Shown here: positions 29,101 through 60,575 of the stretch, one piece after another
How the letters are laid out: each line of letters starts with the position of its first letter
Numbering within the stretch: position 1 is the stretch's first letter
DNA from: Paenibacillus apiarius
Lineage (GTDB): Bacteria; Bacillota; Bacilli; Paenibacillales; Paenibacillaceae
Assembly: GCF_017052585.1 (NCBI RefSeq)
Contig: NZ_JAFFHZ010000002.1
Span: 124,001 to 188,000, forward strand
Length of the DNA stretch: 64,000 bases
Direction of reading: 5' to 3'
Made by a program: the position numbers and the translations under genes
Notes under the pieces: model-generated
The model's database searches: none
What the model saw: the letters and a program-made list of their open reading frames with translations, nothing else
Told to the model about the DNA's origin: nothing

Positions 29101-32100
29101 CAGTAAAATCCGCCAAGAGACGCCGTCAATGACGGCATGGTGAATGACGAGCAGCAAATGATCCCCGTCCGGGCATTGGAATAATCCTGCCCGCACCAAT
29201 GGTCCCGTCTCGAGGTCGATCCCGCTTTGAATCTCGTTCGCTTGCGCTGCAATGAGCGGTTCGCAAGCCGGTTCGTTACGGAAGTCCGCCACGTGCAACA
29301 TGTATAGCTCGCCTTCTCCGATTCCCCTGTTCCAAGCGGTGTATCCGGACTCGGTCTTGCGGAATACCATCCGCAGCGCATCGTGATGCTCCGCGATCTT
29401 CTCCAGCGCCTTGCGAATCGCGGCCTCGTTGAAGCCTTCCTTGCGGTACAACATGATCGATTGGTTATAGTGGTGCGGATCGGCGAACCGTTGTCCGAAG
29501 AACCAGCGTTGGATCGGGGTCAGCTCCGCTTCCCCGGCCACTTCGCCCTGGTCGGCGATTCTGCCGGCTGGCTGGATATGCAGGCTCAACTCCGCAATGG
29601 TCGGGTATTGGAACAAATCCCGAATTTCCATTTTGTACCCAGCCTGGCGCAAACGGGAAGACACTTGAATCGACTTGATGGAATCGCCGCCAAGCTCAAA
29701 GAAATGCTCCCTTGCCCCGATCCGCTCTATCCCCAATACAGCCTGCCATACGTCAGCCAAAGTCTTCTCCGCCACGGTACTCGGCGCAACATATTCCGCC
29801 CCGGTATGCGCGCTTCCTTCCGGAGCAGGCAGCCCCTTGCGATCTACCTTGCCGTTCGGCGTCAATGGCATCCGTTCCAGCTGCATGAAATACGACGGTA
29901 TCATGTATCCCGGCAGTTCTTCTGCCATCGTTCCCCTTAGTTCGTTCACTGTAAGCTCGCGGTCCGCCACATAGTATGCGCACAGCACCTTCTGTCCGCT
30001 TCCGTCCTCCCGTGCGGCGACGACTGCCTCTCGAACGGAATCCGCCCTGAGCAATTGAGCTTCAATTTCGCCTATCTCGATCCGGTAGCCGCGAATCTTC
30101 ACCTGATGATCGATCCGCCCCAAGTATTCGATATTGCCATCCGGCAGCCACCGGGCCAAGTCGCCCGTGCGGTACATCATCTCGCCTGGCGCGTACGGAT
30201 TGTCAACGAACTTCTCAACCGTCAAGTTTGGCCGATTCAAGTATCCGCGTCCCACGCAAGCCCCGCCGATATATAGTTCTCCCGTTATCCCGATCGGCTG
30301 CAACGAGCGGTTGCCGTCCAGAATCATCATGGATACGGCCGGCAATGGCTTGCCTATCGGCAGCGTTCGAAGCTCAGCGGAATCCGTCTGTTCGAAATAA
30401 CTGGCGTCGACGCACGCTTCGGTTACGCCATAGCTGTTCAGGATGCGCATCTGCGCTCCGAATCGATCCATCAGCTTCTGGAATTCTTCGGCCGGACAGT
30501 AATCCGAGCCGACGATTAACAGCTGCAGACTGCGAATGTCCATATTGTTGTCGTATATATATTCCATCAACGGGACAACGAGGGCCGGCGTCGACTCGAA
30601 CATCTGGATGCCGTGCTTGCGAATCAACTCGCAGATGGCTTCCGGGTTCGCACGCGCGTGACCGGGACATAGAATAAGCTCTCCGCCATGCAGGAGCGTT
30701 CGTGCCATGTCTCCCGTGAACACGTCGAACGAGAAGCTTGCCCACTGCAACCAGCGAATGCCCGTCTCATGCAACTGATACCGGGATTTCCAAGCGCTTG
30801 CCATGGCCACCAGCTGTCTATGCTCGATCATGACCCCTTTCGGCTTCCCGGTCGTCCCCGATGTGTAGATGACATAGCTCAGATCAGACGGAGCATTGTG
30901 CGATTCAAGGTTGGCGCCGTCCTCGTCATAGAACGAGTTATCATCTAGAATCACCCATGTGCCGGCGAACGCGACCCTCGCCTGCAGGTGACGCTGGGTC
31001 AACAGCACTCGAGCGTTCGAATCATCCAGCATATAGCGGATGCGGTCCTCCGGATATTCCGGATCGATCGGCACGTAAGCTCCTCCGGCTTTCAAGACAG
31101 CGAGAATTCCCACGATCATCTCCAGCGAGCGGTCTGCCATGATGCCCACCAATTGCTCCGGCAGCACGCCTTGGGCTCTCAATGTCCGCGCCAAACGATT
31201 GGCCCGTTCGTTCAATTCCCGATATGTCAGCTGCTTGTCTTCATACACAGCCGCAACATGATTAGGGATGCGCGCCGCCTGTTCCTCGAACAATTCGTGC
31301 ACGGTCTTGTCCTTGGGGAACTCTGCAGCCGTATCGTTGAATTGGCTCAATATTTGATGCGCTTCTTCGTTGTTCAACATGGACAGCTCGTGCAGCGTCT
31401 GGTGCGGATTATGCAGAATTCTATTGACAATGGTAAGCATCTGCTCGATAATTCGAGTGATTTCATGATCTTCGAACAATTGGATCTGATAATCGACATT
31501 GATGACAAGCTGTTGATCGTCCAGCATATCTTCGACATGAACCGCGAAGTCATCGACTTCGTGACCGCAAAAACTGCTCCGCTGCTGAATGCTGAGCTGT
31601 CCATAGCTGGACCAACGAATCGGCATATAGTCCACAGACACGCCATAGAGATCTTGAATATCGCTGTGCTTATGCTCCTTTCTCAAATCCAAAATAAGCT
31701 GGTTGTACGGATATTTCTGATGACGCAAATTCGTCTTTTGCTCTTTGGAGACATTATGTAGGATGGAAATCAGATCTTGGTTGGGATCAAGCGACAATCG
31801 AGTCGCGACTGTGCTTACAAACATGCCCAACATTTCTTTTTCTTGCCTTGATGTCCGGTTCGCGTATGCCGTCCCCACAGCAATATCCAAATTTCCGGTC
31901 GTTTTATATAAAAACATGTAGACCGTTGCCAAAAATAGTGTGAACAGGCTAATGTTGTGTTGCTCGCTGAAGACCTTCAGCTGTTCGTAACGCTCGCCGG
32001 TGAGGGCTACGTACGCTCTTTTCGCCTCGGTGCTTATGGAGTATGGAGGATACGGTTTAATTCCCGTCGTCTCGGGCATGGTTTTGAACTTTTCCAGCCA

Positions 32101-32691
32101 ATATGCCTTATCTTTCTGATAGCGATCGGACTTTTCATATTCCTGCTCCGCATAAATGTAATCGAGATAAGAGTTCTTCTTGTCTTTGGCCGAGAACGTT
32201 CCATTTGTAAGCTCCATATAGGTTTGCACGATTTTATTGCCAATAAGATGTGAAGTTACGCCATCAGCTATAATATGGTTAATTTTTAAGTTAATCCAAT
32301 ATTCTTGATTGTTAACGTTAAATACTGCGAAATGATATAATTTATCATCAAAAATACTGATTGGAATTTGATTGAAACGATGCAACCAGTCTTTAGCTTC
32401 CAAATGGTCATCCCATTCCATATAATCGACTTCCGGGATGATAGCCGCCGATTCGGGCTCGAGCCGCTGCATGGGTTGATTGTCTTGAGTCATGATTCTG
32501 ATTCGGAAAGCATCATGTTCCGTAATTACTTGATAGATAGACTGTTTCAGCGTAGTTAGGTCTACCTCGCCTCGAATGACTAAAGTTCCTGCAACGGTAG
32601 AGACGGTGGTATTCGGATGCATCATTTCCATATACCATATTCTTCGCTGCGCCTGCGTCAATGGAAATAGTATGTTCGGATTCGCGTTCAC
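12802..32691 (-). CDS. pbtA: NRPS PbtA: Cs-A(Orn)-T-E / C-A(Val)-T / C-A(Thr)-T / C-A(Orn)-T-E / C-A(Ser)-T / C
   Basis: Initiating lipopeptide synthetase, 6,629 aa. The start is GTG (32689-32691) with GGGGGGAG five bases upstream. The N-terminal C domain resembles lipo-initiating starter C domains of Paenibacillus lipopeptide synthetases and reads NHIIADG at residues 138-144, so the first His is Asn. Approximate positions: Cs 1-440, A1 462-955, T1 996, E1 1056-1510; C2 1520-1965, A2 1977-2470, T2 2513; C3 2575-3005, A3 3018-3510, T3 3555; C4 3616-4050, A4 4061-4555, T4 4598, E4 4661-5110; C5 5121-5570, A5 5583-6075, T5 6124; C6 6185-6600. Pocket residues predict Orn, Val, Thr, Orn, Ser; E1 and E4 make both Orn residues D. 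The product is an N-acylated pentapeptidyl chain passed to PbtB. The acidic tail ending in EEIDFVF looks like a docking element. Thr3 would supply the hydroxyl for macrolactone closure. Confidence 0.95.
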   Translation of the reverse strand: MNANPNILFPLTQAQRRIWYMEMMHPNTTVSTVAGTLVIRGEVDLTTLKQSIYQVITEHDAFRIRIMTQDNQPMQRLEPESAAIIPEVDYMEWDDHLEAKDWLHRFNQIPISIFDDKLYHFAVFNVNNQEYWINLKINHIIADGVTSHLIGNKIVQTYMELTNGTFSAKDKKNSYLDYIYAEQEYEKSDRYQKDKAYWLEKFKTMPETTGIKPYPPYSISTEAKRAYVALTGERYEQLKVFSEQHNISLFTLFLATVYMFLYKTTGNLDIAVGTAYANRTSRQEKEMLGMFVSTVATRLSLDPNQDLISILHNVSKEQKTNLRHQKYPYNQLILDLRKEHKHSDIQDLYGVSVDYMPIRWSSYGQLSIQQRSSFCGHEVDDFAVHVEDMLDDQQLVINVDYQIQLFEDHEITRIIEQMLTIVNRILHNPHQTLHELSMLNNEEAHQILSQFNDTAAEFPKDKTVHELFEEQAARIPNHVAAVYEDKQLTYRELNERANRLARTLRAQGVLPEQLVGIMADRSLEMIVGILAVLKAGGAYVPIDPEYPEDRIRYMLDDSNARVLLTQRHLQARVAFAGTWVILDDNSFYDEDGANLESHNAPSDLSYVIYTSGTTGKPKGVMIEHRQLVAMASAWKSRYQLHETGIRWLQWASFSFDVFTGDMARTLLHGGELILCPGHARANPEAICELIRKHGIQMFESTPALVVPLMEYIYDNNMDIRSLQLLIVGSDYCPAEEFQKLMDRFGAQMRILNSYGVTEACVDASYFEQTDSAELRTLPIGKPLPAVSMMILDGNRSLQPIGITGELYIGGACVGRGYLNRPNLTVEKFVDNPYAPGEMMYRTGDLARWLPDGNIEYLGRIDHQVKIRGYRIEIGEIEAQLLRADSVREAVVAAREDGSGQKVLCAYYVADRELTVNELRGTMAEELPGYMIPSYFMQLERMPLTPNGKVDRKGLPAPEGSAHTGAEYVAPSTVAEKTLADVWQAVLGIERIGAREHFFELGGDSIKSIQVSSRLRQAGYKMEIRDLFQYPTIAELSLHIQPAGRIADQGEVAGEAELTPIQRWFFGQRFADPHHYNQSIMLYRKEGFNEAAIRKALEKIAEHHDALRMVFRKTESGYTAWNRGIGEGELYMLHVADFRNEPACEPLIAAQANEIQSGIDLETGPLVRAGLFQCPDGDHLLLVIHHAVIDGVSWRILLEDIAIGYEQALNDEEIRLPSKTDAYRTWAGRLAAYADSPAIIDERAYWQRIAQTEANPLPKDYEADCSLQKDSESVIVQWSREDTEQLLKHVHKAYNTEMNDILMTALGTAVQKWSGCRRVLVNLEGHGREDIISDIDISRTVGWFTSEYPVLLEIEPDKSLSSLIKKVKEDLRQVPNKGIGYGICRYMSGLAHEASWGAGPDISFNYLGQFDQDLQNNGMELSPYPSGADTSGNQARQYALDINGMIMDGSLVLELSYGGKEYRRDTIEELAGMLQESLSEIIAHCMAKERPELTPSDVLLQGLSAQDLERIAEQTRHIGDIENIYKLTPMQKGMWFHSALDRQAGAYFEQTRFTLQGALDVEAFAKSWNALAGRHAVLRSNFYSGWQGEPVQIVYRDKEIGFAFEDVSALEPAEQRAHIENAVNEDRRRGFDLERDELMRVLVLRTAPESHYVLWSSHHILMDGWCLPLVAKEVFDTYSARVRHQPLERTTVPAYSQYIEWLEQQDQAAASAYWSEYLAGYDQHTILPQGNNQGQSEAYAAEHIDCALGKSLSLRINDAARRNQVTLNTLLQASWGVMLQKYNGTGDVVFGGVVSGRPADMPGVEEMIGLFINTIPVRVTADAGESFADVMLRLQEEALASAKHDHYPLYEIQAQSAQKQELINHIVVFENYPMEEQIEQLQSLDGKGLKLKDVKVTEQTNYDFNLVIMPGDEIVIRLDYNGIVFDRAGMERLKGHFVNMLEQIAADPQISVAELELATAAEKAQIMDVFNATAVEYPREKTIHQLFEEQENRTPDAVAVLLEDKRLTYAELNAAANRIACLLRERGVARGTLVGICAERSLDMVIGLLGILKSGGAYVPIDPSYPQERMNAMLEDTAISVLLTQAHLQASLPALTDNNIDYVLLDEAAEMARDGSWPNVSAAAAADDVAYIIYTSGSTGIPKGVCVTHRGVVRLTAAANYVDIGSKDVFLQGSTISFDAATFEIWGSLLNGAALALLPSGNVSLAEWAQAIERHQVTILWLTAGLFQVMVENQLQALQGVRQLLVGGDVVSKTHAKKVLERYNGIRLINGYGPTENTTFTCCHEISAADVERPSIPIGRPIGNTQAYVLDAAGKLLPAGVVGELYTGGDGLAQGYWNRPELTAEKFVDSPIAPASRLYRTGDLARWLPDGTIEYVGRIDDQVKIRGYRIEIGEVEAHLLKVESVLNAVVIARKDDSGQKALCAYYAADKELTASELRASLSQELPGYMIPTHFVQVERMPLTPNGKIDRKALPEPEGHMNTGLEHVAPRTPLEAKLAQIWQEVLGVDKVSVKDSFFDLGGHSLRATTLVSKLHQEMNVSLPLREVFRFPTIEELAQVIGGMEQEIYSAIPRVAEREYYPVSSAQKRLYILQQLEGAEQTYNMPGVMTLAGALDRERLETAFRQLIARHETLRTGFEMVNGEPVQRVYEEMDFAVEYAQASEEAADEAVRGFIRAFDLQKPPLLRIGLVKLAEQRHLLLFDMHHIISDGASIGILIEEFVRLYDGEELSPLRIQYKDYAAWLLSEAQQERSKRQEAYWLDALRGELPVLEMPTDYARPLFRSYEGNTLEFAIQQREAKRLKQLAAESGATLYMVLLALYKTMLHKYTGQEDIIVGMPIAGRTHGDVQPLIGMFVNTLAIRNYPAGEKTFLSFLEEVKDTTMRAYEHQDYPFELLVENVRVPRDASRNPLFDTVFVLQNTEQGTFDIDGLQLLPHPAAHPIAKFDLTFHIEEKEDGLACSIEYATALFQRETVARMAQHFGQLAAAVAVEPSARLDRLEMLTAEEKLQLVERFNDTAADYPREKTIHRLFEEQAERTPDAVAVSCENVQLTYRELNERANRLAHTLREKDVQADSLVGIMTERSPEMIVGILAILKAGGAYVPIDPEYPEERIRYMLEDSGAQVLLLQHHLRDRAGFEGTAVMLDDEQSFAEDRSNPGTNNTPSDLAYVIYTSGTTGKPKGTLIEHKNVVRLLFNSRNLFDFNSADTWTLFHSFCFDFSVWEMYGALLYGGRLVVVPQLTAKNPAQFLQLLHEQQVTILNQTPTYFYQLLREALTEPGQELKVRKVIFGGEALNPQLLKDWKTKYPHTQLINMYGITETTVHVTYKEITHVEIEQAKSNIGRPIPTLKIYVLDANRQCVPVGVAGEMYVAGDGLARGYLHRPELTADKFVDSPFEPGGRMYRTGDLARWLPDGNIEYLGRIDHQVKIRGYRIELGEVEAQLTKAAPVREAIVIAREDGRGEKQLCAYFVAARELTVGELRQELSQELPAYMIPAYFVQLERMPLTPNGKIDRKALPAPEDSVNTGTEYIAPRTPLEADLARIWQDVLGLERIGVKDNFFELGGHSLRATALVNTVHQEMQVNLPLRDVFRFATIEEMAAAIAEKEQRQYMSIPAVEAREYYPVSSAQKRLYILHQIEGAEQGYNMPGVLLLEGMLDREKLEQAFRGLVARHETLRTGFEMVNGEPVQRIDEKVDFTVEYRQAEEEEVEAIVRDFVRTFDLAKPPLLRIGLLELAKERHVLLYDMHHIISDGVSMGIVVEEFVRLYAGAELAPLRIQYKDYAAWQLSEAQQDWMKRQEGYWLDALRGELPVLEMPTDYVRPAVQQYAGSTLAFGIDPHMSEGLRRIAADTGTTLYMVLLAAYTILLHKYTGQEDVIVGTPIAGRTHGDLQPLIGMFVNTLAIRNYPAGDKTFLSYLAEVKETTLGAYEHQNYPFEELVQQLRVERDLSRNPLFDTMFALNNTEPGNFPLEGLRLTPYPSEYTMSKFDLSLDVSEKNDGLECSLEYATALYKTDTAERMAQHFQQLIHSIVNQPEAKLASLGMLTEVEKDQIQHVFNGAEAGQSQEKTVSQLFEEQVERTPDRIAVVHEDKQLTYRELNERANRLARTLRAEGVEPEQLVGIMADRSLEMIVGIMAILKSGGAYVPIDPKYPEDRIRYMLDDSHAQVLLAQRHLQASAAFAGTWVILDEEAFYHEDGTNLKPLNEPAHLSYVIYTSGTTGNPKGVMIEHRQLVAMADAWKREYRLEEEGIRWLQWASFSFDVFSGDMVRTLLYGGELILCPEEARANPAAITELIRKHQIQMFESTPALVIPFMDYVYDNDLDISSLKMLIVGSDHCPAAEFHKLTERCGSHMRILNSYGVTEACVDACYYERTTPDALRTLPIGKPLPAVTMYILDDNRSLQPIGLTGELYIGGAGVGRGYLNRPDLTAEKFVDDPFKPGARMYRTGDLARWLPDGNIEYAGRIDHQVKIRGYRIEIGEVESKLLAAAGVREAAVVAREDGSGHKVLCAYFVADSALTAGELRASMAQQLPDYMIPAHFVQLERMPLTPNGKVDRKGLPAPEGNAYTGAEYVAPRTEAEKTLAAVWQVVLGAKQVGLMDHFFELGGDSIKSIQVSSRLHQAGYKLEIRDMFKYPTIAELSPHLQPIGRKANQGAVTGEAALTPIQHWFFGQRFADPHHYNQSIMLYRKEGFDEAAIRKTLEKIAEHHDALRMVFRKTEHGYAAWNRGIGEGELYSLDVADFTDDPACYKAIETKANEIQSSIDLQAGPLLRAGLFTCAHGHHLLIIIHHAVIDGVSWRILLEDIAAGYEQALNGEAIRLPAKTDSYLTWSEQLRGYAQSPAMEQERAYWQRIAHSNTKPLPKDRTASVSLQRDSESVTVQWSREDTEQLLKHVHRAYNTDMNDILLTALGMAIQQWSGRDRMLVNLEGHGRESIIEDVDISRTVGWFTSEYPVLLEIEPDKSLSHRVKKVKEDLRQIPHKGIGYGICRYLSGTMDDAAWGSAPEISFNYLGQFDQDLNSNGMEMSPYSSGTDTSGKQVRQYALDINGGISDGSLSFDLSYSRKEYRRETMEELAGRLHESLQEIIAHCAAKERTELTPSDVLLQGLSVEELELIVEQTRHVGEIENIYALTPMQKGMWFHNAIDQQAGAYFEQTRFTIQGVLDVDVFAMSLNVLAKRHAVLRTNFYSGWNGEPLQIVYRDKRIAFVYEDLSHLPAAEQTAHIEHAAREDKLKGFDLERDALVRVALMRTGAASCRVLWSSHHILMDGWCLPQLTQELFDTYSAYMKQHHDEQALPAYTQSSYSQYIEWLEQQDEEAAAGYWSEYLAGYDQQTVLPQGKTQGRDEAYVLEHIVCELGKTLTGRMSQLAKQHSVTLNTLLQAAWGIILQKYNGTDDVVFGGVVSGRPAAIPGIETMIGLFINTIPVRVACAAETSFTQVMRRLQEQALDSGRYDYYPLYEIQAQCAQKQELISHIMVFENYPVDEQMEQTGSKDSGTLSITDVEVAEQTNYDFNLMVVPGEELVVRFDFNGSVFDRASIERLKGHLVHVLEQITANPQISVGELELATAAEKAQIVDVFNDTAADYPREKTIHQMFEEQVERTPDAVAVMFEQEQLTYRELNECVNRLARTLRAQGVEPDQRVGIMAERSLEMMVGIMAILKAGGAYVPIAPDFPEERIHYMLEDSGAQVLLLQDRSRESVSFAGRIVNLDDASSYAEDGSNLEWVNQASDAAYVIYTSGTTGKPKGVLVEHGSVINRLLWMQKQYPITANDTIMQKTAITFDVSVWELFWWAFVGSKVCLLPVGGEKNPAVILDTIAQQHISTMHFVPSMLHAFLEYVEEQPIAERERSLAALSRVFASGEALTLSQVERFERCIAPASGARLINLYGPTEATVDVTYYDCEAGQPYTSVPIGKPIDNTQIYIVNRQDQLQPIGVAGELCIAGVGLARGYLKRPELTAEKFVTIPFKPGARMYRTGDLARWMPDGSIEYLGRIDHQVKIRGYRIELGEIEAQLVQVAAIREAVVVAREDESGQKALCAYFAADSELQVSELRSALAVELPGYMIPSYFVQLERLPLSPNGKLDRKALPAPGGSMRSGKEHVAPRSLLEVKLVRIWQDVLGLEHVSVKDDFFELGGHSLRATTLVSKLNKELNINLPLRDVFRYSILEDMALAIDRMEQREFQAIPQAEASEYYPLSSAQKRLYILQQLEGAELSYNMPGAMSLRGQLDRNRFEAAFRGLIARHEVFRTSFEMVDGEPMQRVHRDAAFAVEYMQASEEEVEAIAGQFIRTFDLEQPSLLRVGLIELDRIHHILLFDMHHIISDGVSMGILVEEFARLYSGEELPPLRIQYKDYAAWQQSEVQSERIKQQEAYWLDALDGELPQLELPTDFARPAHKSHEGDTLDFVLDSHLSEGLQRLAEHTGTTMYMVLLAAYTILLHKYSDQEDIIVGTPIAGRTHADVEPLIGMFVNSLALRSYPCGEKSFLSYLEEVKEMTLAAYENQDYPFAELVERVQAVWSLSRNPLFDTMFVLQNTENRSVRFDELTVEPYTQHHYAAKFDLTLEIALEDGVMSGQFEYCTRLFTTNMIDNFAEDLMSIMAQICEQPAIRIGDIHLHGNAEEEEEASLAEEIDFVF
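14167..17361 (-). other. PbtA module 5: DCL-type C, A (Ser), T
   Basis: The C domain carries HHILMDGW, consistent with E4 upstream. The A code read by eye is DVWHFSLVD, a Ser code. The T domain is GGHS type and there is no E, so L-Ser5 is predicted. The C-A block closely matches module 8, but module 8 has a GGDS carrier plus E. Confidence 0.85.
17362..21876 (-). other. PbtA module 4: LCL-type C, A (D-Orn), T, E
   Basis: The A code read by eye is DVGEIGSVD (Orn), identical to module 1. A GGDS carrier protein and an E domain follow, so D-Orn4 is predicted. The A-T-E block is highly similar to those of modules 1 and 7, which suggests duplication. Confidence 0.85.
21877..25011 (-). other. PbtA module 3: LCL-type C, A (Thr), T
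   Basis: The C domain carries HHIISDG. The A code read by eye is DFWNIGMVH, the canonical Thr code. The T domain is GGHS type. Thr3 would provide the side-chain hydroxyl for ring closure in paenibacterin. Confidence 0.85.
25012..28146 (-). other. PbtA module 2: DCL-type C, A (Val), T
   Basis: The C domain carries HHILMDGW, as in domains that accept a D-configured donor, consistent with E1 upstream. The A code read by eye is DAFWLGGTF (Val). The T domain is GGHS type with no E. This A domain is closely similar to A6 of PbtB at DNA level. Confidence 0.85.
28147..32691 (-). other. PbtA module 1: starter C, A (D-Orn), T, E
   Basis: The A-domain segment SFDVFTGDM through GVTEACVD gives the by-eye specificity code DVGEIGSVD, a classic ornithine code. 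The carrier protein is of GGDS type, which normally precedes epimerization, and an E domain with HHAVIDG follows. Predicted unit: fatty acyl-D-Orn1. Confidence 0.85.
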
Positions 32692-33399: not shown

Positions 33400-33822
33400 C
33401 TATTTGCCTTCCTGCAAAAATTGTCCAATGCGAGCCTTGATCTCATCTCGAACCTGGCGGAACTCCGCCATAATCTCTTCTTCGGTGCCGGTTGCCTTGG
33501 CCGGGTCGGTAAAGCCCCAATGCCACTTTACTGCATCCTTGTTCAAAATGACGGGACAATGCTCATCCGCATGGCCACAGAGTGTAATGACATAATCTGC
33601 ACGGTTCAGCAGTACGGGGTCAATGACATCCGATGTATGCCGTGAAATATCGACCCCTGCCTCCTCCATCACTTGAACGGCTCGCGGATTAAGCCCGTGC
33701 GCTTCCAGACCCGCGCTCTTCACTTCATAGCGGTCGCCGCCCAAAGCTTTCAACCACCCATCCGCGATTTGGCTCCGGCATGAGTTGCCCGTACATAGGA
33801 AGTAAACTATTTTTTTGTCCAT
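33400..33822 (-). CDS. arsC: Arsenate reductase ArsC, thioredoxin-coupled type
   Basis: Cytoplasmic enzyme reducing arsenate to arsenite, which the upstream Acr3 permease can export. The 140-aa protein has the low-molecular-weight tyrosine phosphatase fold: P-loop C10-TGNSCR with Arg16, and the redox pair C82 and C89 in [10 protein letters not shown]10/C82/C89 is the catalytic triad of the Bacillus/pI258 ArsC family, regenerated by thioredoxin. An ATCATGGACAAA start with GGAGAG upstream supports the chosen ATG. It is the last gene of arsR-acr3-arsC, 23 bases after acr3. Length and motifs are normal for the family. Confidence 0.95.
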
Positions 33823-33845
33823 GATGATGTCTCTCCTTCGATTTT

Positions 33846-34910
33846 CTATTTATGTGTGAATGTTTGCTTATCGAAATATTTTCTCTTAAACCAGTAGGCG
33901 ACATTAACCAGTCCAATCAACACGGGCACTTCAACGAGAGGTCCGATAACGGCGGCAAAGGCTGCTCCGGAATCGATGCCGAATACCCCAATGGCAACCG
34001 CGATGGCCAGCTCAAAGTTATTGCTTGCGGCCGTGAAGGACAAAGAACAACAGATTGGATAGGAGGTCCCGGTTCGGATAGACATGAAGAACGAAAACAA
34101 AAACATGATGACAAAGTAGATAAGCAACGGGATCGCGATACGCACCACATCCAGCGGCAAGGAAACGATCAGGTCCGCTTTGAGTGAGAACATGAGCACG
34201 ATCGTGAACAGCAATGCGACAAGCGTCAGGGGGCTGATTTTAGGAATGAACACTTGTTCATACCATTCCGTCCCCTTCAGCTTTATACCGATGATACGGG
34301 TCAACAGGCCAGCTGCAAATGGAATGCCTAAGTAGATGAATACACTTTCGGCAATCTGTCCCATCGATACATTCACTTCCGCACCTTGAACCCCGAACCA
34401 TCCAGGCAAGACGGTGATAAAGATGTAAGCAAACACGGAATAGAACAAAATCTGAAAAATGGAGTTAAAAGCGACAAGACCGGCGGTATACTCCGGATCA
34501 CCCTTGGCCAGATCGCTCCACACGATGACCATGGCGATACATCGCGCCAGCCCCATCATGATGAGACCTATCATATATTCCGGCATATCGCTCAAGAATA
34601 GGATAGCCAGTAGAAACATGAGGAAAGGCCCGATAATCCAGTTCTGAACCAATGAAAGCAGGAGTACCTTCCAATCTTTAAATACTCTCCCGAGCTTCTC
34701 ATATTTCACTTTAGCAAGTGGCGGATACATCATCACGATTAATCCGATGGCAATGGGAATGGAAGTCGTGCCGACTTGCATTCCTGACAATCCTTCCGAG
34801 AACCCGGGTACCAAGTATCCCAACAGGATTCCCAGCGCCATGGCGCTAAATATCCATAGGGTCAGATACCGATCCAGAAAAGATAACCTCTTCGTCGTTC
34901 CTTGGCTCAT
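33846..34910 (-). CDS. acr3: Acr3-type arsenite efflux permease
   Basis: Inner-membrane arsenite/H+ antiporter of the Acr3 (BART) family, often called arsB in Bacillus annotations. The 354-aa protein has about ten hydrophobic segments and the conserved membrane Cys in GLARCIAMV (about residue 124). The family motif region [21 protein letters not shown] is present near the C-terminus. The ATG is preceded by GGGGAGAG. It lies 14 bases after arsR and 23 bases before arsC, so the three genes form one operon under ArsR control. Length is typical. Confidence 0.95.
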
Positions 34911-34924
34911 GCGAATCTCTCCCC

Positions 34925-35248
34925 TTATTCACAAATCAACGCATTCATTTTCTGCTTGAGGCCATCTTCCAAGGCTGGCAGGTATTTCAGCACATCATGC
35001 AAATGAGGCTTATCTTCAAGCTGCAACGAATAAAAATTCCATTGGCCCCTGCGCTCCTCGCGAACCAGTCCTGCATCTTTTAATTTTCTCAGATGTTGGC
35101 TAATATTCGGCTGTGTCATATCCAGTATTTCCACGAGCTGGCACACGCACATTTCCTGATGATAAAGGATGGATACGATGTTTAATCGGGTACGGTCACC
35201 AAGCAGCTTAAAATGATCGGACATGACTTCAATGCTCACGTTATTCAA
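34925..35248 (-). CDS. arsR: ArsR-family arsenic-responsive repressor
   Basis: Winged-helix repressor that releases DNA on binding arsenite. I chose the TTG start at 35246-35248 because a strong AGGGAGGTG lies six bases upstream; a further-upstream ATG at 35273-35275 would add nine residues but would place the ribosome-binding site inside the gene and has none of its own. The 107-aa product has the metal-site motif MCVCQLVE (Cys34, Cys36) and the recognition helix [18 protein letters not shown]. It heads arsR-acr3-arsC and should bind the repeats at 35275-35306. Confidence 0.93.
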
Positions 35249-35274
35249 GGTTAACACCTCCCTGTTCGAATTCA

Positions 35275-35306
35275 TTATATAAGCAGGTAATTATATAAGC
35301 AAGTAA
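35275..35306 (-). promoter_or_regulatory. ars promoter with tandem ArsR operator repeats
   Basis: Two adjacent 16-base direct repeats, TTATATAAGCAGGTAA (35275-35290) and TTATATAAGCAAGTAA (35291-35306), match at 15 of 16 positions. On the minus strand the same bases form a promoter: TTGCTT, 17-base spacer, TATAAT. Repressor bound to the repeats would cover both promoter elements. Confidence 0.75.
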
Positions 35307-54138: not shown

Positions 54139-54816
54139 TTACAACTTTCGCGCGGTTGACGAGAAGCCTTTCACTGGTTCAGTATCGCGGTGGAACACCC
54201 ATATCATCAGCGCCAACCAGAACCCGCTCGATATCAATCCGCCGATAATGTCGCTTGGATAATGGACGCCAAGATACACTCGGCTCAGACCGATCATCGC
54301 GATCATGGCGCAGCTCGACGCAAGCAGAAACAATCGTCCCGGACGCGAAGCGATATGCCGCCACAACAGAAACGCAAGCGCCCCATATAACGCGATGGCT
54401 CCCATGGTATGGCCGCTAGGAAAGCTGTAACCAGTCTCCTCAATCAAGCGGTGGGCGATCGGTCGTTCCCGGTGGATAACTAACTTTAACAAGAGATTCA
54501 TTGCCGCGGATCCGCCTAATACGAAGCACAAAAAAATCAATTCCATACGGTGTCCAAGCGCGAAGAATAAAAAAAGCATCACGAATACGGCAATGATAAT
54601 GGAAGACTTGGTTGAACCTATGGTGGAGAAAAGCTCCATCACTTTTGTCAGCCCCGGAGATTCGAAGCTTTGTACGTATGCGGCGATGTTCAGATCGAAT
54701 GGATTTAACGGCTGCCGGATGATTGCAATGGCCAACGCGCCAAAACCCGCCAGAAGCAAAAAACCAAAGAACATCCTATAATGATTCGATCGGGGTTTCC
54801 TCTGCGTAAATTTCAA
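54139..54816 (-). CDS. PAP2-family membrane phosphatase
   Basis: 225 aa with about six membrane segments. The three PAP2 motifs are complete: KLVIHRERP, PSGH and SRVYLGVHYPSD, containing the catalytic His and Asp. Members dephosphorylate undecaprenyl pyrophosphate or phosphatidic/phosphatidylglycerol phosphate on the outer face of the membrane. Next to two SEDS cell-wall genes, undecaprenyl pyrophosphate is a reasonable guess but is not readable from sequence. A ribosome-binding site GAAAGAGGG lies before the ATG. Confidence 0.88.
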   Translation of the reverse strand: MKFTQRKPRSNHYRMFFGFLLLAGFGALAIAIIRQPLNPFDLNIAAYVQSFESPGLTKVMELFSTIGSTKSSIIIAVFVMLFLFFALGHRMELIFLCFVLGGSAAMNLLLKLVIHRERPIAHRLIEETGYSFPSGHTMGAIALYGALAFLLWRHIASRPGRLFLLASSCAMIAMIGLSRVYLGVHYPSDIIGGLISSGFWLALMIWVFHRDTEPVKGFSSTARKL

Positions 54817-54857: not shown

Positions 54858-55985
54858 TTATATCTCCAGCACAATTTCGTCTTTGTGAATATGCACACTT
54901 AGGACCAAGCCAATTGAAATCATATTGGTAAGCAACGAGCTGCCTCCGTAACTGATAAAAGGCAAGGAGATACCCGTCAATGGAACCAATCCAATATGCA
55001 TGCCTATATTCACGAAAATTTGAAAGACCAACATGCCCAAAAGCCCCAACACAAGATAAGAGCCTGCTAACTCCCTGCTATCTTTTACGATGAGTACAAG
55101 CCGATAAACAAGTAAAAAATAGAGCAGCAAAAGCACTGAAGAACCTAAAAATCCATATTTTTCGCCAATTACGACATAGATGGAATCCGAATAGGCGTAA
55201 GGAATAAACCCGCGCCGCAGGAAAAATCCATTGTCCCCGCTTAATCCGCCAGAACCTATCGCACTCATTGCATTTTTAACGTGCCACGACTTATCGGGAT
55301 CGCTGGTCGGATCGAGGAAAGTCTGAATTCTCGACAATTGATGAGGCTTCACAAGCTTGGATAACAAATCATGGTCCGCAAAGTACATCCAACAAATGAT
55401 CCCGACTGCTAGCGCTATGACACTGAAGCACAGCACCATATAAACGGCACGAATATTCCCCATCCACAGCATGCTTAGCATGACTCCAACAAAGACAAGC
55501 GCAGTGCCTAAATCAGGCTGCTTCATAATGATGATGATAGGAATTAAAAAAACGATACAGATCGGCAAAATGTCACGGACCAAACGAAGCTGTTCCCCTG
55601 CCCGCTTGTGCAGCAAGTGGGCGGCTAATACTACCGTAGCTAACTTCATCATTTCGGAAGGTTGAAGCTGAAAGCTTCCAATACTTAACCAACGGACTGC
55701 TCCGTTAATGTTCTCTCCTGTAAACATGACGAGAACCAGCAAAGCAATACCGAGACCATACAAGATATAGGACATCTTTCCGAATAAAATGGTGTAATCC
55801 AATACGGCCACAAGCAGCATCGGAATGCAAAATACAACGAATAGCACCATGTTGTTGATATGGAGTCCGTCCAAATTGGTGCCCGAAGTGGCTCCATGAA
55901 TAGCCACAGTGCCAATGGCGATTAGACAGGCCATGATGAATAAAGTCAATTTATCTAGTTTTTTGAGTTTGCCGAAAAAAATCAT
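54858..55985 (-). CDS. SEDS-family protein, RodA-like
   Basis: 375 aa, about ten membrane segments; peptidoglycan glycosyltransferase family of RodA/FtsW/SpoVE. Conserved stretches include WLSIGSFQLQPSEMMKL, KQPDLGTALVF and PLTGISLPFISYGGSSLLTNM. It lies ten bases after a second SEDS gene and is likely co-transcribed. No class B penicillin-binding protein, the usual partner, is nearby. The short N-terminal and C-terminal tails favour RodA over FtsW, but the distinction is weak. Confidence 0.85.
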   Translation of the reverse strand: MIFFGKLKKLDKLTLFIMACLIAIGTVAIHGATSGTNLDGLHINNMVLFVVFCIPMLLVAVLDYTILFGKMSYILYGLGIALLVLVMFTGENINGAVRWLSIGSFQLQPSEMMKLATVVLAAHLLHKRAGEQLRLVRDILPICIVFLIPIIIIMKQPDLGTALVFVGVMLSMLWMGNIRAVYMVLCFSVIALAVGIICWMYFADHDLLSKLVKPHQLSRIQTFLDPTSDPDKSWHVKNAMSAIGSGGLSGDNGFFLRRGFIPYAYSDSIYVVIGEKYGFLGSSVLLLLYFLLVYRLVLIVKDSRELAGSYLVLGLLGMLVFQIFVNIGMHIGLVPLTGISLPFISYGGSSLLTNMISIGLVLSVHIHKDEIVLEI

Positions 55986-55995
55986 ATAGAAACCT

Positions 55996-57132
55996 CTATT
56001 TCATTCCTTGTGAATTGTTATTTTGTTCTTGCCGCCTTCGATTGTTATCCCGGGATATGCTCAGCAAAATGCCGGTGCTTGCCATGCACAAAATTAAAGA
56101 GGATCCGCCATAGCTGATAAAAGGAAGCGGTACGCCCGTAATAGGCAAACTTCCGGTTACAGCCCCCAGGTTGAGCATCAATTGAATAAATATCATCGTT
56201 ACGATTCCCATTCCAAGCATCACCCCGAATGGATCATTGCTGCGGATTGCCGCAGTAAATCCCCGCCAAAGAAAAAGAAAAAAGACGAATACAAGCAAAG
56301 ATGTGCCGACAAATCCAAATTCTTCTCCGATAACGGCAAAAATAAAATCGGTGTGCGCTTCCGGCAAATAAAAGAGCTTCTGGACACTGCGCCCAAATCC
56401 TGTTCCTGTAAAACCCCCATGCCCTAACGCATAGAACGACTGAATCAGTTGGTACCCGGAGCCGGACTGGTCATCGAACGGATGTAAAAAAGAGATGATG
56501 CGTTCAAGCCGGTAACTTTTGCTGAACGCAAGATAAATAAAGATCGGAATAAGTCCCAGACTAAGCTTGAAAAGATGACGCAAATCGACACCGCCAATCA
56601 CGATGACCGTCATCGAAATAAAAAATAAAAGTAACACGGTGCCGAAATCCGGCTGCAGCATGATAAGCAAGAGGATGAAACCAACCACTGCCAGAATGGG
56701 CAGCAATCCTTGTTTGAAATTCCGGATCCGTTCTCCTTTTTTGCTAATCAGAGCCGCTAAGTATACGATGATGGACAACTTGGTGAACTCGGCCGGTTGA
56801 AAAGTAAAGCCGCCCACGGCAAACCATCTTTTTGCTCCATTGATGTTAACGCCGCCAAGCAGCACCGACACAAGCAGCATTAACGACATCAGCAGCAGGA
56901 AAGGCGCAGCCTTTTTCCATATTCGAAAGGGAATACTCATGAAAAAGAGCATGATAACGAATCCGGCGAAAGCAAACATGCTCTGTTTCGATACGTAATA
57001 CCACGGATTTTCATGTTTCAAGGTGACGATGGGCGAACTGGCGCTAAAAATCATGGCCAAACCAAAGCAGACCAGCAAAACCGTTAAAAACAGCAGCAAA
57101 AAATCCGGACGGCCTTTGATTGTACCTTTCAA
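55996..57132 (-). CDS. SEDS-family protein, FtsW/SpoVE-like
   Basis: 378 aa, about ten membrane segments. Conserved regions: WFAVGGFTFQPAEFTKLS, LQPDFGTVLLLF, the GRSVQKLFYLPEAHTDFIFA loop typical of FtsW/SpoVE, and PITGVPLPFISYGGSS. The C-terminus is hydrophilic and Asn/Gln-rich. It precedes the RodA-like gene. As a glycan polymerase it should act with a class B PBP encoded elsewhere. Two SEDS genes in tandem suggest a sporulation or stress-specific set rather than the essential housekeeping copies. Confidence 0.87.
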   Translation of the reverse strand: MKGTIKGRPDFLLLFLTVLLVCFGLAMIFSASSPIVTLKHENPWYYVSKQSMFAFAGFVIMLFFMSIPFRIWKKAAPFLLLMSLMLLVSVLLGGVNINGAKRWFAVGGFTFQPAEFTKLSIIVYLAALISKKGERIRNFKQGLLPILAVVGFILLLIMLQPDFGTVLLLFFISMTVIVIGGVDLRHLFKLSLGLIPIFIYLAFSKSYRLERIISFLHPFDDQSGSGYQLIQSFYALGHGGFTGTGFGRSVQKLFYLPEAHTDFIFAVIGEEFGFVGTSLLVFVFFLFLWRGFTAAIRSNDPFGVMLGMGIVTMIFIQLMLNLGAVTGSLPITGVPLPFISYGGSSLILCMASTGILLSISRDNNRRRQEQNNNSQGMK

Positions 57133-57265: not shown

Positions 57266-57835
57266 CTATTGGACAGACAATTCGCTCTCGCCAAAATCGA
57301 ATTGGCCGCGGTATCCTTTTTTATTCCATAGTTCAACGGCGTTGTTCCTCCACACGTAAACCTCCAGTCCTTTTTCTCCAGCGCCCAAGGTCCATCCCAG
57401 CACGATATCGGAGACGCCGTCCTTGTTAACATCGGCAATTCCTGCGTAGTCCAATCCGTAACCGAAGCCTTTCGTATTCCAGACCATCCGCCATTCTTCA
57501 TCCTCCTGCTTCAATAATGCAGCCTTTAGTCCCCTGTCGTTGCGGGAGTTCTCTTCATATACGATTACCGCCTCATCGATGCCGTCTCCATCCACGTCTC
57601 CAAATGAAATGCCATTGCTCCCTTTGCCGTTAAGCGGGACTAATAGCCTGGAACCTTCAGGCAGCACACTTCGAAGAACGTCGCTGTGGAAATTCCCTTC
57701 CAGTAACGGAGGATGAATCAAGTCGGCTGGAGCAGCAGGCATGCCGCATCCGCCAATCCATAACAACGAAGCTATCATGAGTCTTGTCCACATCTGTTTG
57801 CCCAACATCCCGTTACCCTGCTCCTCGCTTGTCAT
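57266..57835 (-). CDS. Lipoprotein with FG-GAP/VCBS-like repeats
   Basis: 189 aa, or about 180 if translation starts at the ATG at 57806-57808, which has GAGGAG further upstream. A signal peptide ends in a lipobox-like WIGGC. The mature part has two calcium-binding-type loops, DVDGDGIDEAVI and DVNKDGVSDIVL, as in FG-GAP/VCBS repeat proteins that form beta-propeller blades. It is too short for a whole propeller, so it may be a small extracellular binding module. It is followed by its own terminator and precedes no partner; the kinase gene upstream on the same strand is 53 bases away. Confidence 0.7.
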   Translation of the reverse strand: MTSEEQGNGMLGKQMWTRLMIASLLWIGGCGMPAAPADLIHPPLLEGNFHSDVLRSVLPEGSRLLVPLNGKGSNGISFGDVDGDGIDEAVIVYEENSRNDRGLKAALLKQEDEEWRMVWNTKGFGYGLDYAGIADVNKDGVSDIVLGWTLGAGEKGLEVYVWRNNAVELWNKKGYRGQFDFGESELSVQ

Positions 57836-57887: not shown

Positions 57888-59291
57888 TTAAAGTTCCTGC
57901 CCCAGTTGCGCGCGTGGAAGATAAATATGAACCTTCGTTCCTTGTCCCGCCCCGCTGTCTATCTTTAACTGTCCCTGGTGCAGCTTGACGATCTCATAAC
58001 ATATGGATAGTCCCAGGCCGCTTCCTGCAGCGCTGTTGTTCCCCTTGTAAAACTTTTGCAAGACATGCTCGATGTCCTCCTCCGCAATTCCCGCTCCCGT
58101 ATCCTCGACGGCAATGATGATCTGTTCCTGAGTCGAGTGGGCGCGCACGGTAATGATTCCATCAGGACCAGTAAACTTAAGGGAGTTGTCCAATAGATTA
58201 ATGAGCACTTGCTTCAACCGATTTTCGTCAGCGTGAATGACGGGCAATGTCTCGTCTGCCTGCACCTCCAACGAAATGCCCTGTCTGGCAGCTCTTGGAG
58301 CCAGCTGTTTTCCGATATGCCGCAGCAAGTCCGCAAGATGAAGCGGGGTGCGGGACAGCACGATTCGCCCATTGTCCAGCTTGGACAGATCCAGTAATTC
58401 ATCCACCAGCTCGGTCAGCCTGTCTGTTTCTGATTCGATAATGTCAAGCCCGTCTGCAAGCATCGCCTCACCGGCCTTCTTATCCGACTTCAAGGTTACT
58501 ACCCACCCTTTAATGGACGTTAACGGAGTGCGAATCTCATGGGAGACGGATGAAATGAAATCGTTTTTGAGCTGTTCGTTTCGCCGTATTTTGGCCGCCA
58601 TCGCATTGAACGTATCCGCCAGCGTTCCCAGCTCGTCCCGGTACCGTTTTTTTGCTCTTGCCGTGAAATCCCCTTCAGCCATTCGTTCAGCTGCCAGCTT
58701 AAGCTCCGTAATGGAGCCCGTAATTGTCCTCGACAGGAAAATGCCAAGTACGGCAACAATCGCAACCACAACGATACCGACGGAAATAAATAGGACGGAA
58801 ATATAGCGGACGGTTGCCGTCGTGGCGGATAATGATGTGACGAATCTTACCGCCCCCACAGTCATATCCTTAGCCTGCAACGGATAAGATACCGCTAATA
58901 CGGTGTCGTTAGCGGATGGCTCATGTCCCCTCCAGGTTCCGGCGGTGCCGCTGCATGCCTCTTGCACATCCGGATAACCGCTCATATTTTTGCCGGCTGG
59001 GGCGCCGGCAGAGTCCTGAAGAAGCTGTCCGGAAGAACTGATAATCTGCACCTGCGCGGCGGTATTTTGCGAAAAACCGCCTAATAGCCGTTCGGATTGC
59101 TTCTCTAAATCCTCATCGCTGAAATATTGATGAAAAAAAGAAGCGGATATTTCCGCTTGATTCATCAGGGTGCGTTCCACATTGTGATTGTAGTAATAGT
59201 TTACCGACGCAATCAGAAAAATTTCCAAAATAGATACCGTAATTAAAATGACGGCAAAATAACTTCCCACTAATCTTTTTTGGATGCCCAA
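57888..59291 (-). CDS. Sensor histidine kinase with HAMP domain
   Basis: 467 aa. Two membrane segments (about 8-30 and 164-187) flank a ~130-residue extracellular domain of no recognised type. HAMP follows (about 188-240), then His251 in SSVSHEIRTPL and an ATPase domain with DNSLKF, DTGAGI and GSGLGLSI. It resembles PhoR/WalK-class kinases but has no cytoplasmic PAS domain. Its ATG lies four bases after the stop of the regulator gene, so they form a pair. The signal is unknown. Confidence 0.92.
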   Translation of the reverse strand: MGIQKRLVGSYFAVILITVSILEIFLIASVNYYYNHNVERTLMNQAEISASFFHQYFSDEDLEKQSERLLGGFSQNTAAQVQIISSSGQLLQDSAGAPAGKNMSGYPDVQEACSGTAGTWRGHEPSANDTVLAVSYPLQAKDMTVGAVRFVTSLSATTATVRYISVLFISVGIVVVAIVAVLGIFLSRTITGSITELKLAAERMAEGDFTARAKKRYRDELGTLADTFNAMAAKIRRNEQLKNDFISSVSHEIRTPLTSIKGWVVTLKSDKKAGEAMLADGLDIIESETDRLTELVDELLDLSKLDNGRIVLSRTPLHLADLLRHIGKQLAPRAARQGISLEVQADETLPVIHADENRLKQVLINLLDNSLKFTGPDGIITVRAHSTQEQIIIAVEDTGAGIAEEDIEHVLQKFYKGNNSAAGSGLGLSICYEIVKLHQGQLKIDSGAGQGTKVHIYLPRAQLGQEL

Positions 59292-59295
59292 AATC

Positions 59296-60000
59296 TCATT
59301 CGTCCTTTCTCCAACGGTATCCCCGTCCCCAGACGGTTTCGATCAGCCGCGGCTTGGAGCAGTCATCTTCAATCTTTTCTCTCAGCTTGCGAACGTGAAC
59401 ATCAACCGTCTTGGGATCTCCGACAAAATTCACTCCCCAAATAAGGTTCAGCAGGTCGTTTCTGGATAAGGCTATATCGGGATATTCCAAAAACACCTTA
59501 ATCATTTGGTATTCCTTCGGTGTCAATTCGATTAAACAGCCGTCTTTAAATAACTTGTTGGCATCCAGATCAAGCCGGATCGCCCCAGACTCGAGCACCT
59601 TTCTTGGAGGCCCCGCCGCATAGCGGGTACGGCGCAGCACCGTTCTAATCCTCGCGATGAGCTCTAATGGATTGAACGGCTTGACGATGTAATCGTCAGC
59701 ACCGAGCTCAAGCCCCCTGATCTTGTCCAAGTCTTGTCCGCGCGCAGTAAGAAAGACAATGACGATGTAGGGATCGATTTCTCTTAGCTTCCTGCATAAC
59801 TCAAAACCATCTATATCGGGCAGCATGATGTCCAGAACCACTACGTCCGGCCGTGTTGCGGCGAGACTTTGCAGTGCCGCCGCTCCAAGGGCAGACTCCG
59901 TGACCGTGAATCCGCTTCTTTCCAAATTAATTGACACAAAACGTCTTATATTGTCATCGTCCTCAACGATGAGCACATGGTTGCGGTGTGAAGATTCCAT
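59296..60000 (-). CDS. OmpR-family response regulator
   Basis: 234 aa from ATG at 59998-60000, which has GGGGAGG five bases upstream; an ATG at 60030 would add ten residues and lacks such a site. Receiver domain with phospho-acceptor Asp57 (VVLDIMLPDIDG) and YIVKPFNPLELI; DNA-binding winged helix ending VRKLREKIEDDCSKPRLIETVWGRGYRW. Partner of the kinase gene that follows directly. A terminator at 60055-60085 separates it from the M-box transcript upstream, although read-through would make it part of that transcript. Confidence 0.93.
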   Translation of the reverse strand: MESSHRNHVLIVEDDDNIRRFVSINLERSGFTVTESALGAAALQSLAATRPDVVVLDIMLPDIDGFELCRKLREIDPYIVIVFLTARGQDLDKIRGLELGADDYIVKPFNPLELIARIRTVLRRTRYAAGPPRKVLESGAIRLDLDANKLFKDGCLIELTPKEYQMIKVFLEYPDIALSRNDLLNLIWGVNFVGDPKTVDVHVRKLREKIEDDCSKPRLIETVWGRGYRWRKDE

Positions 60001-60054: not shown

Positions 60055-60085
60055 AAAAAAAGCTCTCCCTGACGTCAGGGAGAGC
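60055..60085 (-). terminator. Terminator downstream of the small ORF
   Basis: On the minus strand GCTCTCCCTGACGTCAGGGA forms most of a perfect palindromic stem, completed by GAGC and followed by TTTTTTT. It closes the M-box transcript before the two-component system. Confidence 0.9.
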
Positions 60086-60132
60086 CGACTGTATTCATTG
60101 ATCTCGTTCGCTCATTAGGCAAATACGCATAT

Positions 60133-60273
60133 TTAAATAGACCTGCTCTTGCAGTGAGAGCCGCCGGGAATATACGTAAGGGAAACATTCGAGAGCGAAG
60201 AGAACACAGTTCTCCCTTCATGCATGGTAGTAATGATGATTGTAATATTCACTATACTCGGAAGACTATCCAT
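60133..60273 (-). CDS. 46-aa small protein under the M-box riboswitch
   Basis: The minus-strand frame has an ATG at 60271-60273 with GGGGGG about ten bases upstream, and lies between the M-box terminator (60309-60333) and a second strong terminator (60055-60085), so it is the only reading frame of any size on that unit. The peptide begins MDSLPSIVNITIIITTMHEG and ends GGSHCKSRSI: a hydrophobic N-terminal third with no clear membrane helix, then a polar tail. I recognise no family. It may be a small Mg2+-stress protein, or the unit may be noncoding. Confidence 0.5.
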   Translation of the reverse strand: MDSLPSIVNITIIITTMHEGRTVFSSLSNVSLTYIPGGSHCKSRSI

Positions 60274-60308
60274 TCGGAAGTTTCCCCCCTTTTCTAAATA
60301 AAATGAAA

Positions 60309-60333
60309 TACCCTCTAGAATGACTAGAGGGTA
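60309..60333 (-). terminator. Riboswitch-controlled terminator
   Basis: TACCCTCTAG and CTAGAGGGTA are perfectly complementary (ten pairs, five-base loop) and followed on the minus strand by TTTCATTTTATTT. It lies directly after the M-box and just before the ribosome-binding site of the small ORF, the usual place for Mg2+-dependent termination. Confidence 0.8.
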
Positions 60334-60364
60334 AGTAATGAATGCGCACAAAAAAACATCCCGT

Positions 60365-60537
60365 TCCCCCAAGCCGAGTTTTGGCACTATACAACGTAAA
60401 GAGAAGCATTCATCTCTTAGCCACCTTATGAAAAGCCTTAATCCGGCAATCCCTGTTCTACCCATTGGCATCTTTCGATGTTTCCGGGCAGTGGCCTGTA
60501 TTTGTATAGGAGCCTCACCTAACGAGGACATATCTAT
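60365..60537 (-). promoter_or_regulatory. M-box (ykoK leader) magnesium riboswitch
   Basis: The minus strand carries the conserved M-box core in order: CGTTAGGTGAGGCTCCTATA, GGCCACTGCCCGGAAAC, GCCAATGGGT, AAGGTGGCTAA and the 3' element AGTGCCAAAACTC. These match the ykoK/mgtE leader RNA, which folds on binding Mg2+ and terminates transcription. Promoter and terminator are placed as expected. In Bacillus the class controls Mg2+ transporters such as mgtE; here no transporter follows. Confidence 0.92.
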
Positions 60538-60546
60538 TACTTCTGA

Positions 60547-60575
60547 ATCGTATCCCTATCGCTTGCAATTGTCAA
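60547..60575 (-). promoter_or_regulatory. SigA-type promoter of the M-box transcript
   Basis: On the minus strand TTGACA (60570-60575), a 17-base spacer and TACGAT (60547-60552). The start point would fall at about 60540, right at the 5' edge of the riboswitch. Confidence 0.8.

Follow-up and report, generated by a model that had tools for sequence, protein, structure and literature searches.

Among metal riboswitches, the M-box is well known, and the literature, in the portions available, treats it as an aptamer that controls one terminator. M-boxes were first characterised before mgtE in Bacillus. Short open reading frames (ORFs) linked to Mg2+ genes are described in the available portions of several papers. 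In MgtL, the motif EPDP causes the ribosome to drop off at low Mg2+, and mgtA is then transcribed (PMC11282234), while in mgtQ of Salmonella, Asp2 and Glu5 destabilise the ribosome (PMC8092293). Intrinsic ribosome destabilisation (IRD) becomes stronger with N-terminal Asp or Glu, and high Mg2+ suppresses it (PMC9718836). The Salmonella mgtCBR leader carries tandem ORF attenuators, mgtM and mgtP, with ATP and proline as their signals (PMC3641672). In Mycobacterium tuberculosis, uORF2 of an M-box, rv1805A, has a conserved N-terminus and a Pro7, and the authors leave its role open (PMC12810186). Other uORFs together with an mgtE motif are reported for Thioalkalivibrio (PMC11109978), and antisense-acting M-boxes have been counted (PMC9943018). 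For Bacillus subtilis, two papers present mgtE as M-box controlled, and the word "leader" is absent from their main texts (PMC8844918, PMC11567004); in one of them, the full mgtE 5' untranslated region served as a reporter of free Mg2+ in a ribosome mutant (PMC11567004), a setting in which a leader that reads the ribosome would matter. Among the open-access papers searched, we recognised none that describes M-boxes of Bacillota as being followed by a leader peptide. Here, we propose that an M-box leader of Paenibacillus apiarius consists of the riboswitch and an MgtL-like leader-peptide attenuator arranged in series, providing two-checkpoint sensing of Mg2+, a reading to which we assign a probability of roughly 0.6.

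The stretch of P. apiarius DNA that was analysed, called the window here, is 64,000 nucleotides long. An earlier note on this DNA, made from its letters alone, had described a full M-box core, and an Rfam search placed RF00380 on the minus strand at 60533-60359 with 148.8 bits (gathering score 44; E 7.5e-34), the match covering model positions 1-169, which is the full length. This was the sole Rfam family at gathering within the 64-kb window, and around the locus nothing credible besides the M-box was found in the leader at E 1. The promoter described in that note, TTGACA-17-TACGAT at 60575-60547, exists as a site with 10 of 12 consensus bases, but it is no rarer than chance alone would allow, with 2 promoter-like sites found versus 1.6 expected in the region scanned. 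We consider it a probable promoter because it lies just 5' of the aptamer, which is the main argument for it, and because the related locus L032 has the same promoter sequence. Both intrinsic terminators of the note were recovered, terminator 1 by a hairpin scan at about 60333-60309 and terminator 2 at about 60086-60061, with 4 terminator-like hairpins found in the region scanned compared to 0.6 expected in shuffles. The 5' arm of terminator 1 has an alternative pairing with the aptamer 3' strand (-13.6 kcal/mol in silico), and such a predicted strand exchange is what one would look for in the expression platform of an M-box.

The same note had taken the M-box for an orphan whose only target is a small ORF, a description that is ruled out by the genes that follow on the same strand and by the recurrence of M-boxes before regulators. 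Six co-oriented genes run along the minus strand from 60000 down to 54139: an OmpR-type response regulator (59296..60000; ATG at 60000, Shine-Dalgarno [SD] sequence at 60012-60006), a sensor histidine kinase with HAMP, HisKA and HATPase_c domains (57888..59291), an FG-GAP repeat protein with a weak Pfam match that is lipoprotein-like by eye (57266..57835), two FtsW/RodA/SpoVE family proteins (55996..57132 and 54858..55985) and a PAP2 superfamily protein (54139..54816). About 60 nt separate the end of terminator 2 from the response-regulator ATG, and a scan of this interval for sigma-70-like sites, the one promoter type sought, found none. In the reading proposed here, the six genes would form one transcript. 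The window species is a relative of P. profundus, with 90% identity between the kinases. A search with the kinase gave 31 loci, and among the best 13 of these 31, two carry an M-box by Rfam, L132 of Paenibacillus profundus and L140 of Paenibacillus sp. RC67. The pairing of an M-box with a response regulator and kinase is therefore found in other species, and the link between M-box and kinase is recurrent, not universal. At the RC67 locus, the run read by eye comprises the M-box, a response regulator, a kinase and PAP2-like, CBS-like, MgtE-like and FtsW-like genes, and the regulator operon may there contain a Mg2+ transporter. Two further M-boxes (L119 and L120) lie directly 5' of FtsW/RodA-type genes and, by their position, are independent support for putative Mg2+ control of cell-wall SEDS proteins. 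At the window locus, control by a Mg2+ riboswitch would extend to a two-component system and to FtsW/RodA/PAP2 genes, and this is relevant to the long-standing connection of Mg2+ with the making of the cell wall.

M-boxes were present in 47 of the 394 genomes of the window's own family, Paenibacillaceae, and the analysis covered 79 of the 80 matches listed, the excluded one being below cut-off. The first genes, assigned by tblastn, encode an MgtA-type ATPase at 32 loci, MgtE at 11, a response regulator at 10, a DUF1003 protein at 9, MgtC at 7, an ABC permease at 4, FtsW/RodA at 2 and a CBS/MgtE-domain protein at 1, with none at 3; a Pfam check of these classes covered one representative per class and left out the regulators of other species. 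An MD/ME-type leader was found at five of the 10 response-regulator loci (L092, L100, L101, L124 and L131); L067, L080, L085 and L093 lack one, and L108 has another start. At seven DUF1003-type loci (L078, L079, L097, L099, L106, L107 and L118), the leader contains EPDPEP or EPDPDP, which is close to the destabilising motif of MgtL, and no second terminator was found. In four genomes, M-boxes form divergent pairs with about 150-270 nt between them (L087/L089, L094/L110, L096/L111 and L115/L116), with an MgtC-type gene on one side and an MgtA-type gene on the other.

The small ORF and the ribosome-binding site of the earlier note are both present. The sequence GGGGGG at 60289-60284 is an SD sequence conserved in related loci, and the ORF at 60273-60133 has 46 codons plus a stop and starts MDSLPS, with conservation in frame extending over about the first 6 codons only. 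Since the SD sequence, the start and the first codons are conserved beyond P. apiarius, the ORF is probably translated. The note had suggested that it may encode an undescribed Mg2+-stress small protein, which would be made at low Mg2+, and a good SD sequence, a site under an M-box and conserved first residues agree with this, as does the M. tuberculosis M-box, which in the available portion of its description controls a translated, conserved uORF (PMC12810186). In L032/L100 (P. profundus-like), the nearest relative to have this locus, in-frame agreement is limited to MDSLPS: its leader begins MDSLPSSESYNHQHY... and has 37 codons, that of the window begins MDSLPSIVNITIIITT... and has 46, and indels shift the frame after MDSLPS, with the stop at codon 38 compared to codon 47 in the window. 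The window peptide matched no Pfam or NCBIfam family, and across 39 non-redundant loci the information per base is 0.94 bit in codons 2-6, compared to 0.17 and 0.23 in codons 7-10 and 11-24, respectively. The small protein was rejected on this loss of frame, with in-frame conservation over the whole length not found, and we consider it very unlikely. What is conserved beside M-boxes is the start and not the remainder of the peptide, and the ORF therefore resembles a regulatory leader; it looks like a leader ORF rather than a conserved small protein.

The 39 non-redundant loci used above were drawn from 59 with a start in the zone 66-105 nt after the aptamer, and their starts were partly picked by residue composition, which makes codon 2 biased and uninformative in this set. 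Residue conservation exceeded that of independently shuffled columns at codons 3-5 (P 0.007, 0.0000 and 0.0000) and not at codon 6 (P 0.16). The listing with residue-picked starts was repeated with residue-neutral SD rules, and SD-anchored starts were obtained without any peptide rule at 71 of 79 family loci, a few of them being the main gene itself; residue 2 was Asp in 43, Glu in 6 and Ser in 11, several of the Ser starts being of the MSMDS or EPDPEP type. Leaders of the same family before mgtE, mgtA and mgtC start with MDSSSS, MDGSPS, MDSGPS, MEGSPS and the like. A conserved start could also belong to an RNA element within a non-coding spacer, with plain M-box control, and in favour of this, the conserved stretch is short and lies right beside the SD sequence. 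Against this stand the codon-phase pattern of codons 2-6 in the 39 loci, in which second positions are the most conserved and third positions mostly the least, the synonymous third-base changes, the use of both AGY and TCN codons for Ser, and the different nucleotides with which other families specify similar residue classes (MDSSPE, MEDSS, MDHPDS and EPDPP); we regard this as the least probable of the explanations weighed. A Thr/Ile-rich attenuator of the thrL type, suggested by the stretch ITIIITT of the window peptide, was also rejected, the stretch being absent from the related leaders listed.

The leader ORF is followed by terminator 2, an intrinsic terminator of -20.7 kcal/mol with a T7 run, and the 5' arm of this terminator (60086-60072) can pair with strand A, which comprises codons 18-23 of the ORF (60222-60207; match of -13.3 kcal/mol). 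This candidate antiterminator is called A:A' here. The palindrome GAGAAC-TGT-GTTCTC (60200..60214) overlaps strand A and, judged by its sequence, could compete with the antiterminator. A motif conserved in the alignment, AGGTCTATTTAAATATGCG (60126..60144), overlaps the leader stop codon and stands beside a hairpin of variable sequence (60145..60161). A pause hairpin before AGGTNTATTTAAG gave only a weak signal (mean z -0.59, 38 loci), and a role of 60145..60161 as an RNA polymerase pause hairpin is a weakly supported guess.

A cassette with a leader start such as MDSSPS 66-105 nt past the aptamer and a second terminator is found at 48 of the 79 family loci, where it precedes mgtA, mgtE, mgtC, ABC-permease or response-regulator genes. 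The last sense codon falls at 44-52 in 36 of the 48 and ranges from 32 to 62, with no single place. The best partner of the terminator 2 5' arm was ORF nt 43-58 at 36 of 48 loci. Compared to dinucleotide shuffles, A:A' at single loci was only modestly stronger (mean z -1.31; better at 5% in 17 of 48). When partners were permuted among 29 non-redundant loci, the mean A:A' energy of each leader with its own partner was -13.18 versus -10.08 (sd 0.44) with permuted ones, a value reached in 0 of 20000 permutations (P < 5e-5). An inner helix between ORF nt 63-95 and the 52 nt before terminator 2 gave -21.61 compared to -15.13 when permuted (sd 0.66), and again 0 of 20000 permutations reached the own value. 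Control pairings showed no such fit, with P values of 0.28 and 0.33 when ORF nt 1-33 was set against the one or the other 3' partner, and 0.08 for nt 81-125 with the terminator 2 arm. By these comparisons, a strand in the ORF co-evolves with the terminator 2 5' arm. RNAalifold applied to the alignment of 48 leaders recovered terminator 2 as the only structure, because the registers of A:A' and the inner helix shift between subgroups; the register-free permutation tests were used in place of an alignment-based covariation count. The window leader is predicted to fold into A:A' and the inner arm just before the terminator is completed, with terminator 2 in their place once it is complete. As in leader-peptide attenuators, the ORF thus overlaps, in silico, a strand that excludes an intrinsic terminator, and the leader and attenuator nature of the ORF and terminator 2 is well supported by the compared sequences.

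These pairings also bear on the possibility that the locus is a decaying copy, in which translation would serve only coupling or Rho, hairpin 2 would simply end the transcript and the operon would have its own promoter. The window ORF is frameshifted compared to its sister, terminator 2 is strong, and the window's own genome has another M-box with a leader and a truncated downstream gene. Strand A nevertheless still matches terminator 2 in the window, with 8.5 of 15 nt paired in the simulation described below, the interval before the response regulator is free of sigma-70-like sites, and the link of M-box to regulator is seen at 10 of 79 loci, all of which speak against decay and make it unlikely. 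This other M-box of that genome (L122, G000:C1:1435886-1436061) is followed by a leader ORF, MDSSPGPEPHSKHN..., and a downstream frame that ends after a few codons, and its relative L123 has an intact CBS/MgtE-domain gene at that place. Unlike the window M-box, L122 is possibly a truly orphaned one.

In the two-checkpoint reading that we favour, the first checkpoint would be the riboswitch. With Mg2+ bound, helix P1 would sequester the strand that otherwise pairs with the terminator 1 5' arm, leading to termination, and with Mg2+ absent, the polymerase would read past terminator 1. At the second checkpoint, a ribosome would load at GGGGGG and begin the acidic, Ser/Gly/Pro-rich start, which is MDSLPS here. 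When Mg2+ is sufficient, the ribosome would sweep strand A and the arm behind it, A:A' would not form and terminator 2 would. When Mg2+ is low, the ribosome would fall apart or stall on the first codons, leaving strand A free to form the A:A' antiterminator, and the response-regulator, kinase, FtsW/RodA and PAP2 run would be transcribed. Sequence comparison shows how the leader is built, that this arrangement recurs before Mg2+ genes, that its start is conserved and that its pairings co-evolve; translation, the transcription of the six genes as one unit, the sign of control and the loss of ribosomes on the first codons at low Mg2+ are inferred. Composition, context and precedent point to a Mg2+ dependence of this loss: the start composition fits IRD, with an acid load in the window of one Asp plus a Pro, which is mild compared to proven destabilising runs.

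We simulated the effect of ribosome position by masking a ribosome footprint on the leader and counting the nucleotides of A' paired with A before completion of the terminator, which is an equilibrium proxy and not a measure of kinetics. Mean A:A' pairing was kept with no ribosome or with a ribosome at codons 1-11, was nearly gone at codons 15-23, returned partially at codons 27-43 and dropped again towards codons 49-55. For 21 non-redundant canonical loci, the paired nucleotides numbered 5.59 without a ribosome, 6.22 with one at codon 5, 0.04 at codon 19 and 2.40 at the leader's own stop. The corresponding values for the window locus, out of 15, were 8.5, 7.1, 0.0 and 8.5. Since a ribosome at the stop codon leaves A:A' intact at the window locus, the OFF state would need continuing translation or polymerase timing. 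Less than 1 nt of A:A' (within ORF nt 37-78) was paired even in the ribosome-free state at 21 of the 48 loci, which include all six mgtE loci of the set. The same RNA logic, with an early stall freeing strand A, would also serve classical amino-acid attenuation, in which a shortage of charged tRNA makes the ribosome stall at Ser, Pro or Asp codons and the M-box is the only reader of Mg2+, and Salmonella mgtP responds to proline limitation in the available portion of that work (PMC3641672). The conserved codons are, however, mixed (D, S, G and P) without a long run of a single residue across loci, and most of the targets that were classified are genes for Mg2+ or the envelope rather than for biosynthesis; we consider this explanation improbable, although the least so of the alternatives.

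Across the class Bacilli, M-boxes were found in 132 of 398 genomes, and 100 loci from other families were examined, 40 spanning 26 families and 60 taken from among the matches listed. Under a rule using SD strength only, a short ORF precedes the main gene at 71 of the 99 loci with a recognisable main gene and is lacking at 28; in the window's own family, the same rule gave 70 of 79. Shuffled leaders had an SD-led short ORF at 67 of 99 loci on average, compared to 71 of 99 for the real ones, and the presence of an ORF alone therefore means nothing; only its start is unusual. An acidic residue occurs in positions 2-5 of 50 of the 71 leaders, compared to 7 of the 71 target genes and, among shuffled ORFs, 29%, and an acidic residue plus Pro in positions 2-9 of 34 of 71 leaders, 5 of 71 target genes and 14% of shuffled ORFs. 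With distinct sequences only, acidic starts numbered 46 of 67 leaders versus 7 of 63 target genes (Fisher 9e-12). As a raw count, leaders with an acid in positions 2-4 occur at least once in 17 of 29 families, the window's own among them, and the EPDP motif is also present in leader L200. At one further locus, the M-boxes L244 and L253 (G569:C3:349678-349839 and 349937-350100) point the same way with about 100 nt between them and precede one leader ORF and gene.

The genus of genome G566 is Bacillus-like by its MgtE, as judged by eye. M-boxes are present in 43 of its 44 genomes, and all 30 loci examined have an AGGAGG-type SD sequence and MD[SH]P[HD]S. Two leader sets of this genus gave 95 non-synonymous and 39 synonymous pair differences and 96 and 25, respectively, raw counts that show no sign of purifying selection across the whole peptide and so count against the small protein as well. 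Among the subtilis-like members, the leader ends in a TAG that overlaps the SD sequence after it, and no second terminator was seen by eye, and the output may therefore be translational there. We tentatively extend the reading, at slightly less than even odds, to Bacilli M-boxes in general, including that of Bacillus mgtE: these would be dual sensors in which the aptamer reads free Mg2+ and the leader peptide reads ribosome stability, and a leader with an acidic/Pro/Ser start would be a Gram-positive counterpart of MgtL of separate origin. The uORF behind the M-box of mycobacteria may be a device of this kind too. If many Bacilli M-box leaders are such dual sensors, reporters containing the full mgtE leader respond to free Mg2+ and, at the same time, to the condition of the ribosome, and the ribosome is a second Mg2+ sensor in Gram-positive bacteria, as it is in enterobacteria through an unrelated peptide.

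Elsewhere in the window, also on the minus strand, giant open frames of at least 4216 and 6629 amino acids, NRPS-like by eye, occupy 1-12650 and 12802-32691, and at 33400-35275 lies what looks by eye like an arsenic cluster, a run of genes for an ArsR-like regulator, a membrane protein resembling ACR3 and an ArsC-like protein.

Compared to the systems described above, in the portions of their descriptions available, the window leader resembles several in part. MgtL of mgtA in Escherichia and Salmonella is likewise a short leader ORF before Mg2+ genes with an acidic, Pro-containing start, and its logic is that predicted here, with full translation giving OFF and early loss of the ribosome giving ON (PMC11282234). 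The window leader differs in lying behind an M-box, in having an intrinsic instead of a Rho-dependent terminator, in its start sequence, which is MDSLPS with EPDP absent, and in its phylum, and we file it as a leader that would work like MgtL and not as a member of the MgtL family. Like the window ORF, mgtQ is short, has an Asp at position 2 and belongs to a Mg2+ operon (PMC8092293), but it has eight codons, lies between genes and acts on translation, and its Pro4 is not needed. The mgtCBR leader also places two sensors before Mg2+ genes, both of them ORFs, unlike those of the window. In M. tuberculosis, rv1805A is a conserved uORF 3' of an M-box, as in the window (PMC12810186), but the platform there is translational and involves Rho, and the likeness is drawn from its description. 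With the M-box (ykoK leader, RF00380) itself, the window leader shares the full aptamer and an intrinsic terminator with a 5' arm able to pair with the aptamer 3' strand; to these it adds a second checkpoint, the leader ORF and second terminator, and its target is a two-component and FtsW/RodA run instead of a transporter.
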